Positions 54,421 through 63,084 of a DNA stretch of 64,000 bases are shown piece by piece. Below the pieces are notes generated by a model. It was not told the origin of the DNA. It was given only the letters and a program-made list of their open reading frames with translations, and made no database searches. A program made the translations under genes and the position numbers. Within the stretch, counting starts at the first letter, position 1; every line of letters starts with the position of its first letter. The stretch comes from Paracoccaceae bacterium (lineage in GTDB: Bacteria; Pseudomonadota; Alphaproteobacteria; Rhodobacterales; Rhodobacteraceae): NCBI GenBank assembly GCA_902554885.1, contig CACDPV010000004.1, positions 1 through 64,000 of the forward strand, in the 5' to 3' direction.

Positions 54421-56028
54421 TCACAAGTTTTTGTAGGCTTCGATACGAGATAATAGCATTTGGGTAGAACCATCCTTTGAAACCTTACTTTTTTCACCAG
54501 TGATAATTTCAGTAAGTTCCTCCGCCAAAACTTTACCTAACTCAACACCCCATTGATCAAAGCTATTAATTCCAAGAATAATCCCTTCAACAAAAACTCG
54601 ATGTTCATATAAAGCGATGATTTTTCCAAGGATTTTTGGACTGAGTTTTGAATAAACCAAGGTAGTAGAGGGACGGTTTCCTGGAAATACTCTATGCGCT
54701 GCAATAGACCCAATGTCTGTTCTGTTTTCCTGGCTCAGTTTTAATCTTTCAATAACTTCAGCCATGGACAATCCGAGCATCAAGGCCTCAGACTGAGCAA
54801 GGCAATTTGCGACCAAAATATCATGGTGATCAGTCAAATAGCTCTCGGCACATGCTGCGCCCACCATAAATTCGCAAGGAATAATTCTTGTACCCTGATG
54901 AATTAACTGAAAAAAAGCATGTTGACCGTTCGTACCAGGTTCACCCCAAACAATAGCGCCCGAGTCATAAGTCAATTTTTTGCCATCTGTAGAGACGTTT
55001 TTGCCATTACTTTCCATCTCTAACTGCTGTAAGTAAGCAGGTAGTTTTGATAACCTCTGTTCATATGGCAACACTGCTCGAGTATGGTAGCCACAAATTT
55101 GATTATGCCAAATGCCCACTAAAGCAAGCATAATTGGCATATTTGTCTCCATAGGAGCTTCTTGGAAGTGCTGATCCATTTCAAAGGCCCCTTCGAGAAA
55201 TTGATCAAAGTTCTTTTCCCCTATTGCGATCATTAGTGACAATCCAATAGGACCCCAAATCGAATATCTTCCACCAACCCAGTCAGCAAAATCAAAAACA
55301 CGCTCCTCGGGGATACCAAAAGCTTTGGTATTACTTATTGAATTTGAAACTGCAACAAACTGATTAGTGGGATTAACAACTTTGCTCGTCATCCAATCCA
55401 AAGCTGTGCGTGCATTTGTCATAGTCTCAGTAGTCGTAAAGGTTTTTGATGCAACAATGATCAAGGTTGTTTTTGGATCAAGACCTTTTAAAGTGTCGTG
55501 TATTTGAGCACCATCAACGTTGGACACAAAGTGACATTTAGGTCCAGTATGAAAAGCAGCTAATGCAGATGTAGCCATAAACGGTCCCAAATCTGACCCA
55601 CCAATGCCTATATTAACTACATCAGTAATATTACCACCTAACCCTTTAAACTCTCCATCTCGAATACTTTTTGTGAATGCTCGCATTTTTGCCAGAGTAT
55701 CAGAAATTTTTGGCATGACGTTTTCACCATCAGAAAAAATCTTTGAACCAGATTTATTGCGCAAAGCCACGTGAAGCACCGATCTATCTTCCGTTTTATT
55801 TATCTTTTCTCCAGAAAACATTGCACTTCTAAATTGCTCAACGGCTTTTAGGTTTGCCAGTTGTAAAAGTTCTGCACGACATTTCTTATCAATTTGGGTC
55901 TTCGAATAATCAAAAAAAAGATCTCCTAAATCTATCGAAAACTCTACTGCCCTATTTGGATCGTCAAATAGAGATATAATCGAGCGAGAGCTCTTTGCTT
56001 CCCAATGTCTTTTTAATTTAGTAAACAT
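54421..56028 (-). CDS. pgi: Glucose-6-phosphate isomerase
   Basis: Interconverts glucose-6-phosphate and fructose-6-phosphate. Signatures: DVVNIGIGGSDLGPFM (near 128-143), SKTFTTTETMTNA, GGRYSIWGPIGL, and the later NQLIHQGT-like FFQLIHQGTRIIPCEF and SFDQWGVELGK. 535 residues. Third gene of zwf-pgl-pgi; gap to pgl is 25 bp. Confidence 0.97.
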   Translation of the reverse strand: MFTKLKRHWEAKSSRSIISLFDDPNRAVEFSIDLGDLFFDYSKTQIDKKCRAELLQLANLKAVEQFRSAMFSGEKINKTEDRSVLHVALRNKSGSKIFSDGENVMPKISDTLAKMRAFTKSIRDGEFKGLGGNITDVVNIGIGGSDLGPFMATSALAAFHTGPKCHFVSNVDGAQIHDTLKGLDPKTTLIIVASKTFTTTETMTNARTALDWMTSKVVNPTNQFVAVSNSISNTKAFGIPEERVFDFADWVGGRYSIWGPIGLSLMIAIGEKNFDQFLEGAFEMDQHFQEAPMETNMPIMLALVGIWHNQICGYHTRAVLPYEQRLSKLPAYLQQLEMESNGKNVSTDGKKLTYDSGAIVWGEPGTNGQHAFFQLIHQGTRIIPCEFMVGAACAESYLTDHHDILVANCLAQSEALMLGLSMAEVIERLKLSQENRTDIGSIAAHRVFPGNRPSTTLVYSKLSPKILGKIIALYEHRVFVEGIILGINSFDQWGVELGKVLAEELTEIITGEKSKVSKDGSTQMLLSRIEAYKNL

Positions 56029-56053: not shown

Positions 56054-56728
56054 CTACTCAGCCCAGTGGACTAGTGCACCGTCCAACACGCCAAGCACTG
56101 GTGCAGATAACGGATCAAGAGACAGCGCTTCATCATAAACTCTTTTTTTTTCAAGACCGAAAAAAACTAAATGTTTTGTTTGCGAAGAATTCAGAACTCT
56201 GGCAGTCAAGGAAATCCTACGCTCGGATATGCCTGGCGCCGATACTGCAACCAGATTTGGAGCTTCTGTACTTAAAGCTAGCTTCAAATTACTCGACCCT
56301 GGAAATAGAGATGCCGTGTGCATATCTGCCCCCATACCCAGAAGCGCAACCGATAAAGGAAGGCAAGCATCAAGATTTTTATTGATATGCAGAATACCCT
56401 CCTCCGGAGTATCAAAATCGGCATACATATGAACAAATGTTGCCTTTGATGCCTCATTTTTAAAGAGCGTCTCCTTTATTAATCTAGTGTTTGAGCGTTC
56501 GTGTGAATACGGGACCCACCTTTCATCTCCGAGAACAACTTGTACCCTTTTCCAGTCCAATTTATATTCTGAAAGTTTTTTTAATATTGGTCCGGGTGTA
56601 GAGCCTCCTGGCACCGCAAATGTGACACTCTGGCTACTATCTAGCGCATTCGTTAAGTCGTTTGATATTTTCGATGCGACTTTCTCAATTAATTCGTCTC
56701 TATCGTTATATTTTATTACATTATTCAT
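56054..56728 (-). CDS. pgl: 6-phosphogluconolactonase
   Basis: Hydrolyses 6-phosphogluconolactone, the second step of the oxidative pentose phosphate or Entner-Doudoroff route. VPGGSTPGPIL (near 49-59), VVLGDERWVPYSHERSN (near 75-91) and ALLGMGADMHTASLFP are conserved. 224 residues. Its ATG overlaps the zwf stop (ATGA), so the two enzymes are translationally coupled. Confidence 0.96.
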   Translation of the reverse strand: MNNVIKYNDRDELIEKVASKISNDLTNALDSSQSVTFAVPGGSTPGPILKKLSEYKLDWKRVQVVLGDERWVPYSHERSNTRLIKETLFKNEASKATFVHMYADFDTPEEGILHINKNLDACLPLSVALLGMGADMHTASLFPGSSNLKLALSTEAPNLVAVSAPGISERRISLTARVLNSSQTKHLVFFGLEKKRVYDEALSLDPLSAPVLGVLDGALVHWAE

Positions 56729-58173
56729 GATATTTCACGCCATTTTCGTCCGTCCCTGTGCATAAGCATCAAAGAATCTTCAGGACCAGAGCTACCAGGC
56801 TCATATTTTTCTGGTGTAGAACCTTTGCTTATCCATTGATCAATAACCGGATCTGTCCATGACCATGCAGCCTCCACCTCATCACCACGCATGAAAAGAG
56901 TTTGGTTACCCCGAATGACATCCATGATAAGCCTCTCGTATGCATCGGGAACAGCATCAACTTCAGGACCTAGAGCCTCAGCAAAAGTCATATCTAACGG
57001 GACATCGATTAGTCGCATGCCACCAGGCCCAGGCTCTTTAATCGTAAGGTCCATCGTCATCCCTTCATCGGGCTGCAAACGAATAACTAGTGCATTTCTA
57101 TGGCTCCCCGCATCTGGACCAAAAATTGAATGGGGCGTTTCTTTGAAAACCACTGCTATTTCAGAACACCGTGCTTTTAGCTTCTTACCAGTTCTTAGAT
57201 AAAATGGAGTACCTGCCCAACGCCAATTGCTAATCTGAACTTTAAGAGCAATAAAACTTTCTGTTTTCGAACTGGGATTGTCTACCGCCTCAAGATAGCT
57301 TTTGTCTGAGCCACTTTTACTATATTGCCCGCGGACGATATCACTGGAACTTATTGGGTCTAGCGCACGAATGACTTTTAATTTTTCATCGCGAACTGCA
57401 TCTGGAGAAAACTTAGCAGGAGGTTCCATCGCAATCAAACAGAGTAATTGCATAAGATGATTTTGAATCATATCCCGCATGGCGCCAGCCTGATCATAGT
57501 AACTGCCACGCCCCTCCACACCAACGGACTCAGCAACTGTTACTTGAATATGATCGATGTATTGAGAATTCCAGAGCGGCTCAAATAACATATTACCAAA
57601 ACGAACAGCCATGAGATTTTGGACCGTTTCTTTGCCAAGATAGTGATCGATTCGATAAATTTGGTCTTCACTGAAATGTTCTTTTAGCACTGCGTTTAAG
57701 GCTTGCGCCGAACTTAAATCTCTCCCAAAGGGTTTTTCTAAAACGATGCGTGAACTTTGAGACGCAATAGAGTATTGATGCAGCTTTTTAGCCAACTGAC
57801 CAAACAAAGATGGTGAGACTGAAAAATAAAAGGCCTGTATTGCGTTTTTTCGAACTTTATTAGCTAAATCTGACCATCCAAAGTCACCCTGAGCATCTAT
57901 TTGAACGTACTTGATTTGTTTTATGAAAATTTCGAGTTCAGCTGAAGCCATAAGCTCTGGCTCAAATTCCTTTAAAGCAGATATAACTAAATCTTGGTAA
58001 CTTTTGGTATCTAGCTCTGACCTTGCAACCCCTATTACGAAAGCGTCATTAGGCATTTGCCCCGCAACAAATCTTCTAAAAAGACTTGGCAGAATTTTTC
58101 GTTTTGCAAGGTCACCAGTTCCACCAAAAACCACTAAATCAAAGGCTTGAACCGGGATTACACGCGAGACCAT
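56725..58173 (-). CDS. zwf: Glucose-6-phosphate 1-dehydrogenase
   Basis: Oxidises glucose-6-phosphate to the lactone with NADP. N-terminal dinucleotide site FGGTGDLAKRKILPSL (near 15-30), active-site RIDHYLGKETVQNLM (near 173-187) and GVEGRGSYYDQAGAMRDMIQNH. 482 residues. TAGGAG lies upstream of the start. First gene of zwf-pgl-pgi; a perfect LacI-type palindrome lies 82-93 bp before it. No edd/eda genes are in the window. Confidence 0.98.
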   Translation of the reverse strand: MVSRVIPVQAFDLVVFGGTGDLAKRKILPSLFRRFVAGQMPNDAFVIGVARSELDTKSYQDLVISALKEFEPELMASAELEIFIKQIKYVQIDAQGDFGWSDLANKVRKNAIQAFYFSVSPSLFGQLAKKLHQYSIASQSSRIVLEKPFGRDLSSAQALNAVLKEHFSEDQIYRIDHYLGKETVQNLMAVRFGNMLFEPLWNSQYIDHIQVTVAESVGVEGRGSYYDQAGAMRDMIQNHLMQLLCLIAMEPPAKFSPDAVRDEKLKVIRALDPISSSDIVRGQYSKSGSDKSYLEAVDNPSSKTESFIALKVQISNWRWAGTPFYLRTGKKLKARCSEIAVVFKETPHSIFGPDAGSHRNALVIRLQPDEGMTMDLTIKEPGPGGMRLIDVPLDMTFAEALGPEVDAVPDAYERLIMDVIRGNQTLFMRGDEVEAAWSWTDPVIDQWISKGSTPEKYEPGSSGPEDSLMLMHRDGRKWREIS

Positions 58174-58253
58174 TTTTAACTCCTACAAATAATGCCCGAG
58201 AGCATATTAAACCACCCGAGCTCAAATAAAACCCCATAGATAGGCAAAGCTTA

Positions 58254-58267
58254 TGTTAGCGCTAACT
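58254..58267. promoter_or_regulatory. LacI-type operator upstream of zwf
   Basis: TGTTAGCGCTAACT contains the perfect 12-bp palindrome GTTAGC-GCTAAC (58255-58266) with a central CG, the classic LacI-family operator layout. It overlaps a weak -35-like TTAGCG for zwf, consistent with control of the zwf operon. In Rhodobacter the LacI-family regulator CceR binds very similar sites before Entner-Doudoroff genes. The rest of the 254-bp gap between zwf and tyrS holds only TTGACT (58272-58277), without a good -10. Confidence 0.7.
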
Positions 58268-58427: not shown

Positions 58428-59681
58428 ATGGGTTTTCAACCTAAGTCAGATTTTCTAAATATTATGATATCGCGTGGTTTTATTTCGGACTGCACCGACT
58501 ATGACGGCTTGGATAATCTTTTAATCTCCGAAGTTTGCCCAGGCTATATAGGGTTTGATGCTACCGCAAAATCTTTGCATGTTGGCAGCCTGATGCAAAT
58601 TATGATGCTACGCTGGCTGCAAAAAACTGGAGGAAAGCCCATTACTCTAATGGGTGGGGGCACCACAAAGGTTGGAGACCCAAGTTTTAGAGCAGACGAG
58701 CGTCCTTTATTAAGCAATAAACAAATTGAGGAAAACATTTCAGGTATTAAGGGAGTTTTTTCAAACTATCTTGATTTTGGAGAAAAACCCTCTGATGCCT
58801 TAATGATAAATAATGCGGAATGGCTTGATGAGTTGAATTATATTCAGTTCCTTCGTGAAATAGGTGGTCATTTTTCAGTGAACCGCATGCTCTCGTTTGA
58901 AAGCGTTAAATCCCGATTGGACCGCGAGCAATCTCTTTCATTTCTTGAATTTAACTATATGATTTTGCAGGCTTATGACTTTTATGAATTGAACCAAAGA
59001 TACGGATGCAAACTTCAAATGGGCGGTTCCGATCAAATGGGAAACATAATAAATGGCATGGAATTATCACGCCGTAAAGCAAATGCAAAAGTATTTGGGC
59101 TTACATCTCCACTACTTACTACTTCAGATGGTAAAAAGATGGGAAAATCTCAAAACGGGGCAGTCTGGCTTAATAAAGAAATGCTATCACCTTTTGATTT
59201 TTGGCAATTTTGGCGAAACACTTCGGATTCAGATGTAGGAAAATTCTTAAAACTTTACACGGAAATTGACCTTGATGAATGTGAAAAATTAGGATCTTTG
59301 AAGGGCGCCGAAATTAATGAAGCTAAGTCTATTTTGGCAAATCAGGTAACTACTTTATGTCATGGTGATAAAATAGCTTCAGATGTAGAGAATACAGCAA
59401 AAGAAGTTTTTGAAAAAGGCGGTGTTGGAAGTGATCTCCCATCTTACAGTGTCACATTGGGCGAAGTTAAAACTGGTTTAACCGTAGCTCAGTTATTGAC
59501 AAAAACTGGACTTACGAAATCGGGCAAAGAAGCCAAGCGCTTAATTTCAGAAAAAGGCGCACGACTAAATGGAGTTCTGATCACCGATATAAGCCAAATT
59601 GTAAATGTTGATGACTTTAATGAACCACTGAAACTAAGTGCCGGTAAAAAGAGACATGCGATCGTGGATCTTCAAAAATAA
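58428..59681 (+). CDS. tyrS: Tyrosyl-tRNA synthetase
   Basis: Class I synthetase. [20 protein letters not shown] (HIGH-type HVGS) near 43-62, the tyrosine site [28 protein letters not shown], and KMGKS (near 243-247) in place of KMSKS. An S4 RNA-binding domain closes the protein ([20 protein letters not shown]). 417 residues. Separated from zwf by the operator-bearing gap. Confidence 0.97.
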
Positions 59682-59706: not shown

Positions 59707-60264
59707 TTATTGCTTGTGTCTAACTTGCTCCATAAAATCTGGGCTCCCTAGTACTGACCCGTTAGAGCCTAAACCCAACTTTATGTCGTCTATGACATCC
59801 ATTCCTGCGACTACTTTACCCACTACTGTATACTGACCATTCAGAAAATACCCTTCTTTAAACATAATAAAAAACTGACTGTTCGCACTGTCAAGGTTCT
59901 GGGCTCGCGCCATTCCAACAATACCTCTATCGAACGGTATATTTGAAAATTCTGCAGGCAAATCAGGCATATCAGATCCACCGCGCCCCGCCATTGAAAA
60001 GTCTCCCTCAACTTTACCAAATTGAACATCACCAGTTTGAGCCATAAAGCCCTCAATCACACGGTGAAAAGCTATGCCATCATATTTTCCTTTAGAAGCT
60101 AGCTCCACTATTCTTTTAACGTGCAACGGTGCAACATCTTCAAACAAGTCAATGACCACAACCCCATTTGCACCCTCGCCTTTTATGCTAATTTCAAGTT
60201 TAGCCGCAAATGCGGAAGTGGACGAAACAATCAAAATTAAAAGAGACAGAAATAATCTATGCAT
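59707..60264 (-). CDS. Periplasmic peptidyl-prolyl cis-trans isomerase (cyclophilin)
   Basis: 185 residues with a cleavable signal (MHRLFLSLLILIVSSTSAFA, cut about residue 20) and a cyclophilin domain: GIAFHRVIEGFMAQTGD, AEFSNIPFDRGIVGMARAQ, NSQFFIMFKEG, FLNGQYTVVGKVV. Assists folding of exported proteins. Its start overlaps the end of the cytoplasmic cyclophilin gene by 8 bp, a clear tandem duplication with divergent destinations. Confidence 0.93.
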   Translation of the reverse strand: MHRLFLSLLILIVSSTSAFAAKLEISIKGEGANGVVVIDLFEDVAPLHVKRIVELASKGKYDGIAFHRVIEGFMAQTGDVQFGKVEGDFSMAGRGGSDMPDLPAEFSNIPFDRGIVGMARAQNLDSANSQFFIMFKEGYFLNGQYTVVGKVVAGMDVIDDIKLGLGSNGSVLGSPDFMEQVRHKQ

Positions 60265-60763
60265 CAGCAGCCACCTTGACTGATATCATTCTATCTGGTG
60301 ATGCCGGCGGCTCACCTCTTTCAAGACCGTCAACGAACTCCATGCCGGATATAACCCGTCCATAGACCGTGTATTGACGGTTTAAAAAGTGATTATCGGC
60401 AAAATTTATAAAAAATTGGCTGTTTGCACTATCTGGGCTCGAACTTCTAGCTGCACCAAGAGTACCCCGATCATGAGGAATACTGGAAAACTCTGCCTTA
60501 ACATCAGAAAATTCTGAACCCCCGCGGCCTGCCATTCTTATATCGAAATTCGACTCCATGTTTCCATATTGCACATCTCCAGTTTGGGCCATAAAACCCT
60601 CTATGACTCTGTGAAAACAAACATTGTCATAAAGTCCGGACCTAACAAGGCTTTTCATCCTCTCACAGTGAAGTGGTGCAATATCAGGCAATAGCTCTAT
60701 AACAACAGTCCCACCTTTTACTTCCATGATAATCGTATTCTCTGGGTCTTTAATATTGTCCAT
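60257..60763 (-). CDS. ppiB: Cytoplasmic peptidyl-prolyl cis-trans isomerase (cyclophilin)
   Basis: 168 residues, no signal peptide. NVCFHRVIEGFMAQTGDVQYGN, AEFSSIPHDRGTLGAARSS, SANSQFFINFADNHFLNRQYTVYGRV mark a B-type cyclophilin. First of two tandem cyclophilin genes, divergent from pgk. The 124-bp gap to pgk shows TATAAT-like strings but no clear paired -35. Confidence 0.94.
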   Translation of the reverse strand: MDNIKDPENTIIMEVKGGTVVIELLPDIAPLHCERMKSLVRSGLYDNVCFHRVIEGFMAQTGDVQYGNMESNFDIRMAGRGGSEFSDVKAEFSSIPHDRGTLGAARSSSPDSANSQFFINFADNHFLNRQYTVYGRVISGMEFVDGLERGEPPASPDRMISVKVAADA

Positions 60764-62117: not shown

Positions 62118-62131
62118 TCATAGCGCTAAAA
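62118..62131. promoter_or_regulatory. Degenerate LacI-type site upstream of fda
   Basis: TCATAGCGCTAAAA matches the zwf-type sequence TGTTAGCGCTAACA in 11 of 14 positions, including the central TAGCGCTAA. It lies 66-79 bp before the fda start. A possible second target of the same regulator. Confidence 0.35.
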
Positions 62132-62196: not shown

Positions 62197-63084
62197 TTGG
62201 ATAATACACAGTTGCTTAAAATGTCATCTGGCCAAGGATTTATTGCGGCTCTAGATCAAAGTGGAGGCTCCACTCCAAAGGCACTTAAACTCTACGGAAT
62301 AGAGGGGCTGGAATACAATACTTCGTCCGAAATGTATAATTTAATTCACGAAATGAGAACACGAATTATAAAATCATCTGCTTTTAATAGTAAAAGAATA
62401 CTTGCAGCAATACTTTTCGAAAATACAATGCTTAGGCAAATCGACGAGCTACCTACGGCAATTTATTTATGGGAAAAATTACAAATTGTTCCCTTTCTTA
62501 AAATTGATAAGGGACTTTGTTCATCAGAAAATCAGGTACAGTTGCTAAAGCCAATCAGTGACCTTGAAACTTCTTTAAAACTAGCAAAAGAAAACAAAAT
62601 ATTTGGAACAAAAATGCGTTCTGTAATAAACGGCGCTAACAACATTGGCATAAAAGATTTGGTTGACCAGCAATTTGATATAGGTGAGGAAATATTATCT
62701 TATGGCCTTGTACCTATTATTGAACCAGAAGTAGACATTAAAATTCCTGATAAAAAAGAGGCTGAAGACTTACTCTATAACAATATTAAGAGAAGACTTG
62801 ATAGAATTGAGCCAAGTAAAAAAGTAATGCTAAAGCTTAGTCTACCCGAGCATGACAACTTTTATGAACCACTAACACGACATCCAAATATTTTACGAAT
62901 AGTCGCACTAAGTGGAGGCTTTGAAAAGAAAATCGCTGTAGGTCGGCTAAGACAAAACAACAAAATGATTGCAAGCTTTTCAAGAGCTTTGACGGAAGGA
63001 TTGAAAAGTAATTCTACAGAAAAAGAGTTTGAAGAGCAATTAGATCAAACCATCCAAAGTATTTTCGAAGCATCTCTTACTTAA
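62197..63084 (+). CDS. fda: Fructose-bisphosphate aldolase, class I
   Basis: Schiff-base aldolase cleaving fructose-1,6-bisphosphate. GQGFIAALDQSGGSTPKALKLYGI (near 12-35 region), VPFLKIDKGL, GTKMRSVIN, and the lysine in KVMLKLSLPE are the class I plant/animal-like signatures of the short bacterial type. 295 residues. The start is TTG at 62197 (AAGG ten bases upstream); ATG at 62221 lacks a ribosome site and would cut the conserved N-terminus. Only aldolase in the window; class II was not seen. Confidence 0.92.
   Translation: MDNTQLLKMSSGQGFIAALDQSGGSTPKALKLYGIEGLEYNTSSEMYNLIHEMRTRIIKSSAFNSKRILAAILFENTMLRQIDELPTAIYLWEKLQIVPFLKIDKGLCSSENQVQLLKPISDLETSLKLAKENKIFGTKMRSVINGANNIGIKDLVDQQFDIGEEILSYGLVPIIEPEVDIKIPDKKEAEDLLYNNIKRRLDRIEPSKKVMLKLSLPEHDNFYEPLTRHPNILRIVALSGGFEKKIAVGRLRQNNKMIASFSRALTEGLKSNSTEKEFEEQLDQTIQSIFEASLT

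Follow-up and report, generated by a model that had tools for sequence, protein, structure and literature searches.

A predicted CceR/GapR-type operator before the zwf-pgl-pgi operon of a Paracoccaceae bacterium

The zwf-pgl-pgi locus and its upstream palindrome

The window analysed here, that is, the whole stretch of 64,000 nucleotides, contains on its minus strand the genes zwf, pgl and pgi, which are identified by curated models and, to judge from their spacing, are packed as an operon. The gap of 254 bp between zwf and the divergent tyrS gene holds a short palindrome. The features of this region are the following:

54421..56028, minus strand: pgi, glucose-6-phosphate isomerase (NCBIfam NF001211, 740.1 bits), 25 bp after pgl
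56054..56728, minus strand: pgl, 6-phosphogluconolactonase (TIGR01198, 160.5 bits), overlapping the end of zwf by 4 bp
56725..58173, minus strand: zwf, glucose-6-phosphate dehydrogenase (NCBIfam TIGR00871, 566.8 bits), first gene of the operon
58254..58267, no strand assigned: predicted CceR/GapR-type operator, TGTTAGCGCTAACT
58428..59681, plus strand: tyrS, divergent neighbour of zwf

Read on the zwf strand, the element is AGTTAGCGCTAACA and occupies positions -94 to -81 relative to the zwf start codon. Its core, 58255-58266 (GTTAGCGCTAAC), forms the perfect 12-bp palindrome that a previous sequence-only reading had reported at 58254-58267, with coordinates and letters that proved exact. The same reading had placed the palindrome over the likely promoter of the operon, a suggestion that was not borne out: a scan of the zwf strand returned two promoter-like pairs (0.9 expected), both ending at least 48 bp upstream of the site, and none at the site itself, and the zwf promoter was located neither by consensus nor by alignment of four genus sequences. 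The stretch between the operator and the zwf start (58174-58250) looks conserved by eye in four genus genomes and contains, on the zwf strand, the near-repeats GCTCGGG and GCTCTCGGG; possibly, it comprises promoter and leader. Elsewhere in the window, two overlapping reading frames at 59707-60763 encode proteins whose translations, judged by eye, resemble peptidyl-prolyl isomerases.

Conservation before zwf in relatives is the decisive evidence for this element; neither its palindromicity nor its exact position is strong alone. The window contains 18 perfect 12-bp palindromes, against approximately 16 expected in random sequence by our own arithmetic, so the palindromicity of 58254-58267 is in itself at chance level. 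Moreover, matches to the motif with up to 3 mismatches are not enriched, either in the window (2 matches versus 2.57 expected) or in the recovered genome (62 versus 70 for a backward control). At up to 1 mismatch, 58254-58267 is the sole place in the recovered part of the genome (1.46 Mb, 53% complete), and model R2, which was trained without this genus and is described below, puts it first there with an E of 0.0175. Five places in the genome match with up to 2 mismatches, three of which were set aside as lying inside reading frames.

Conservation before zwf and the candidate regulator

A first set of 80 zwf loci, scanned over 300 bp upstream of the gene, was split into 44 loci of Rhodobacterales, a class that was set by title and zwf identity and includes one locus (L048) titled Alphaproteobacteria only, and 36 others. 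The motif is present with up to 2 mismatches in 32 of the 44 Rhodobacterales loci and in none of the 36 others, while the exact 12-bp core precedes zwf in 17 of the 44; when the 11 loci titled Ruegeria are left out, 21 of 33 loci retain the motif at up to 2 mismatches. Palindromes built from 419 permuted half-sites reach a maximum of 9 of the 44 loci at up to 2 mismatches and 14 at up to 3. The second set, of 30 zwf loci from relatives, apparently has one genome in common with the first (G009 / L021); here, the motif was found in 21 loci at up to 2 mismatches and in 23 at up to 3, and the permuted controls in at most 5 and 14, respectively. A functionless palindrome produced by chance would agree with the count of 18 in the window and with the lack of enrichment of loose matches; nevertheless, it could hardly account for a sequence that is conserved before zwf across the order, where the permuted controls fail, and that is common to a coherent set of target genes, and its probability is considered negligible.

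The gap that holds the operator is also that of tyrS, whose start lies 161 bp away, and the operator could in principle serve this gene as well, or even mainly. However, of the 44 Rhodobacterales loci, only that of the close relative L021 has a tyrS gene in the 3 kb upstream of zwf, whereas 32 of the 44 keep the site, which therefore belongs to zwf. Thus, tyrS is probably not a target of the operator, and a shared or predominant role at tyrS is very improbable.

The 12 Rhodobacterales zwf loci without a site are L029, L036-L041, L045, L052, L055, L056 and L058. The last of them, from Amylibacter ulvae, has a site with 2 mismatches 1.06 kb upstream of zwf, before an extra reading frame; this site was excluded from the zwf counts.

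The operator reading had presupposed a LacI-family regulator in the genome and a palindrome conserved at zwf in relatives. In addition to the conservation in 32 of 44 loci, five LacI-family genes (L001-L005) were found in the recovered genome, and one of them, with a LacI helix-turn-helix and a sugar-binding domain, is of the GntR/CceR type:

G000:C19:3122-4153: L001, LacI-family protein, 343 aa (PF00356, 60.9 bits; PF00532, 72.5 bits)

With the GntR model, L001 reaches 280 bits, versus 79.6-162.6 bits for L002-L005, and with the IdnR model 223.3 bits; both values of L001 stay under the curated NCBIfam cut-offs (400 bits for GntR and 500 bits for IdnR). Among the 15 genus-mates, 12 have a relative of L001 with 71-95% identity, and the three without a match are represented by genomes that are 58-77% complete. 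The ortholog group across the family spans 58-95% identity and the next matches reach at most 44%; among the genomes of the 80-locus set, two matches have intermediate values of 49 and 50% identity. By model score and by the identities of its relatives, L001 would be a GntR/CceR-type LacI protein.

The presence of this ortholog and that of the zwf site co-occur clearly in the 30-locus set and weakly in the 44 Rhodobacterales loci. In the former, a site with up to 3 mismatches precedes zwf in 22 of 25 genomes with the ortholog and in 1 of 5 without it (Fisher p 0.006), and in the latter, where at least 49% identity and up to 2 mismatches were applied, the proportions are 30 of 39 and 2 of 5 (p 0.12); both tables were filled by hand, the Fisher p ignores relatedness and several of the genomes are incomplete. 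A CceR-like protein (49-69% identity) is encoded in nine of the 12 genomes without a zwf site, and no L001 ortholog was detected in two of the 32 that have it. No autoregulatory site was found in the 300 bp upstream of L001, where the best match has 5 mismatches, and at up to 3 mismatches the regulator gene is preceded by a site in 6 of the 27 loci covered, all six outside the genus. For the CceR/GapR regulon, an autoregulatory site at the regulator gene has been reported in 5 of 13 genomes, so this feature is not universal.

Candidate targets in the window, the genome and the genus

Within the window, the motif has one other match at up to 3 mismatches, which lies before the gene for fructose-bisphosphate aldolase:

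62118..62131, no strand assigned: second, weaker operator-like site, TCATAGCGCTAAAA, with 3 mismatches, starting at -79 from the fda start
62197..63084, plus strand: fda, fructose-bisphosphate aldolase (NCBIfam NF003784, 433.7 bits)

This site is weak alone, with 9 bits under model R1, whose training includes that very site. All 12 fda loci of the genus have a corresponding site, positioned -78 to -84 relative to where the protein match begins, and at up to 3 mismatches 19 of 22 fda loci in relatives have one, the permuted controls reaching at most 7 of 22. At higher stringency, the true motif is found in 5 of the 22 loci at up to 2 mismatches (6 for one permuted control) and in none at up to 1 mismatch (2 for one permuted control). 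It is likely that fda constitutes a second target within the window. Outside the window, the pckA gene of this genome has two operator-like sites upstream, with a distance of 20 bp from start to start (L009 1501-1534, contig C29), and all 14 pckA loci of the genus that were examined have such a pair, with 2-3 mismatches per site and starts 20 or 22 bp apart.

The genus was surveyed with R2, a sequence-only model derived from 34 zwf sites outside the genus, in which 9 duplicate or near-duplicate sites among the 31 from the genomes of the 80-locus set were omitted. The other model, R1, contains three sites of the genome itself and further genus sites and, because of this training set, is circular for the genus. 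In all 34 out-of-genus zwf sites the central C and G are invariant, which corresponds to an even palindrome with a central CG. R2 was run on 16 genus genomes, with 150 candidates scored per genome, strands merged by hand and a threshold of E up to 1. A site that is missing from the resulting list proves nothing, since 150 candidates per genome were scored; an iolG site of G007, for instance, was missed. The list holds at least 73 distinct sites in the 16 genomes, and 72 of the 73 listed are situated 30-126 bp upstream of eight gene types, assigned by a script with eight reference proteins and named through an NCBIfam check of one example each:

pckA: 21 sites in 14 genomes
edd: 12 sites in 12 genomes
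zwf: 10 sites in 10 genomes
gap: 7 sites in 7 genomes
eno: 7 sites in 7 genomes
pykA: 6 sites in 6 genomes
sugar-binding protein gene: 5 sites in 5 genomes
iolG: 4 sites in 4 genomes

The remaining site is located where a contig breaks off, and the genes upstream of it are those that also lie upstream of the binding-protein sites. Thus, 63 of the 73 listed sites are found in front of zwf, edd, gap, pykA, eno or pckA, all of which Ravcheev et al. 2014 (PMC4052901) name among the targets of GapR. At E up to 1, a single site precedes each of gap, pykA, eno, edd and zwf, 30-107 bp from the start codon, and the contrast between single sites at glycolytic genes and a pair at pckA suits repression of the former and cooperative activation of the latter. 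In one genus-mate (L226 531-2675), a tandem pair of GAPDH genes has an operator-like site in between. In the genome under study, R2 returned zwf and pckA only at E up to 1, and edd and gap were not found in its recovered part (53% complete). The co-targets anticipated from the sequence alone were therefore recovered in part: pckA and, weakly, fda in this genome and edd and gap in genus-mates, but no atp gene among the matches listed.

Nine of the 73 listed R2 sites, or ten with the one at the contig end, precede an inositol/rhizopine-type ABC importer operon or its iolG gene (for example, at L246 1488, L234 1551 and L312 8223 in genus-mates), and a further iolG site was read in G007. The site is placed before iolG in one group of genomes and directly before the binding-protein gene in another. 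The binding protein of the importer scores 234.9 bits on a rhizopine model, under the cut-off of 420, and iolG scores 422.5 bits, over its cut-off of 355; the binding-protein gene was not found in the recovered part of the genome studied here. Genes of this type are absent from the GapR target list as excerpted from PMC4052901, and no link between CceR and inositol was found in the literature searched. Tentatively, the CceR regulon of the genus might extend to this importer operon, in which case the uptake of cyclitols could be coupled to the Entner–Doudoroff switch without a local regulator, an extension that we regard as less likely than not. Alternatively, these sites could be used by an IolR-type LacI regulator encoded elsewhere, regulators of this kind being given for inositol genes by Ravcheev et al. 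(PMC4052901).

Similarly, the operator before zwf might be used, alone or together with CceR, by another LacI-family protein of the genome, which has four further genes of this family in a recovered part that lacks about half of the genome, and the IolR-type regulators just mentioned would fit the sites at the inositol operons. However, L002-L005 remain far below L001 on the GntR model, the list of targets agrees with the published GapR regulon, and a search of frames of 90 aa or more in the fetched inositol-operon stretches of G012, G001, G006 and G007 revealed no LacI gene, one being present in G005 at 9.3 kb from the site. The participation of another LacI-family protein at zwf is consequently improbable.

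Proposed mode of control and related systems

Conservation of the zwf site, a candidate regulator and a common set of targets support the LacI/CceR-type operator that had been proposed from the palindrome, and the palindrome is very probably an operator for CceR/GapR, a LacI-family regulator of central carbon metabolism encoded elsewhere in the genome. GapR and CceR are presumably one protein. Binding, effector and sign of control are modelled here on relatives. When glycolytic substrates are scarce, a CceR dimer would occupy the operator and block zwf-pgl-pgi, and this block would spare glucose-6-phosphate from being drained during gluconeogenesis. A rise in 6-phosphogluconate would then release CceR and switch on the Entner–Doudoroff genes. 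CceR may also occupy the paired pckA sites and the weaker fda site, there probably as an activator by analogy with Paracoccus denitrificans, an analogy on which the activation of fda in the manner of pckA is likewise based. When cceR is deleted in P. denitrificans, Zwf, Pgl, Edd, Eda, Pgi and Pyk increase and PckA and Fba decrease (PMC11323563), and gluconate-6-phosphate has been reported as the effector of CceR (PMC5507952).

The element at 58254-58267 thus adds zwf-pgl-pgi of this bacterium to a regulatory system that has already been described, and the known picture of CceR/GapR is unchanged by the zwf site. A lineage with fairly small genomes, two genus-mates of which have 2.2 and 2.4 Mb at 95-96% completeness, appears to keep the global switch between glycolysis and gluconeogenesis that its larger relatives have, which helps to predict the sugar responses of such bacteria. 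The CceR of Rhodobacter sphaeroides was reportedly described by Imam et al. 2015, and targets in ATP synthase and the TCA cycle are said to belong to its regulon, whereas none of these appears among the matches listed here.

The GapR regulon of Rhodobacteraceae (Ravcheev et al. 2014, PMC4052901; RSP_1663) likewise depends on a LacI-family regulator, and the general LacI rule given in that source, an even palindrome with a central CG, also applies to the site described here. The GapR targets matched are zwf-pgl-pgi, pckA and fba/fda in this genome and edd, gap, eno and pykA in genus-mates, whereas tal, mdh, pycA and scrK, which figure among the GapR targets in the same source, are not among the genes listed for R2 sites. 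Both papers, that on GapR and that on CceR, are cited for CceR and GluR in PMC5507952. The closest named NCBIfam models to L001 are GntR and IdnR of gammaproteobacteria, but these regulate genes of gluconate or idonate. Control of overlapping central-carbon genes by LacI-family proteins is also described for PckR in Rhizobiales and GluR in Caulobacter, which, according to PMC4052901, are non-orthologous and have different motifs of their own.
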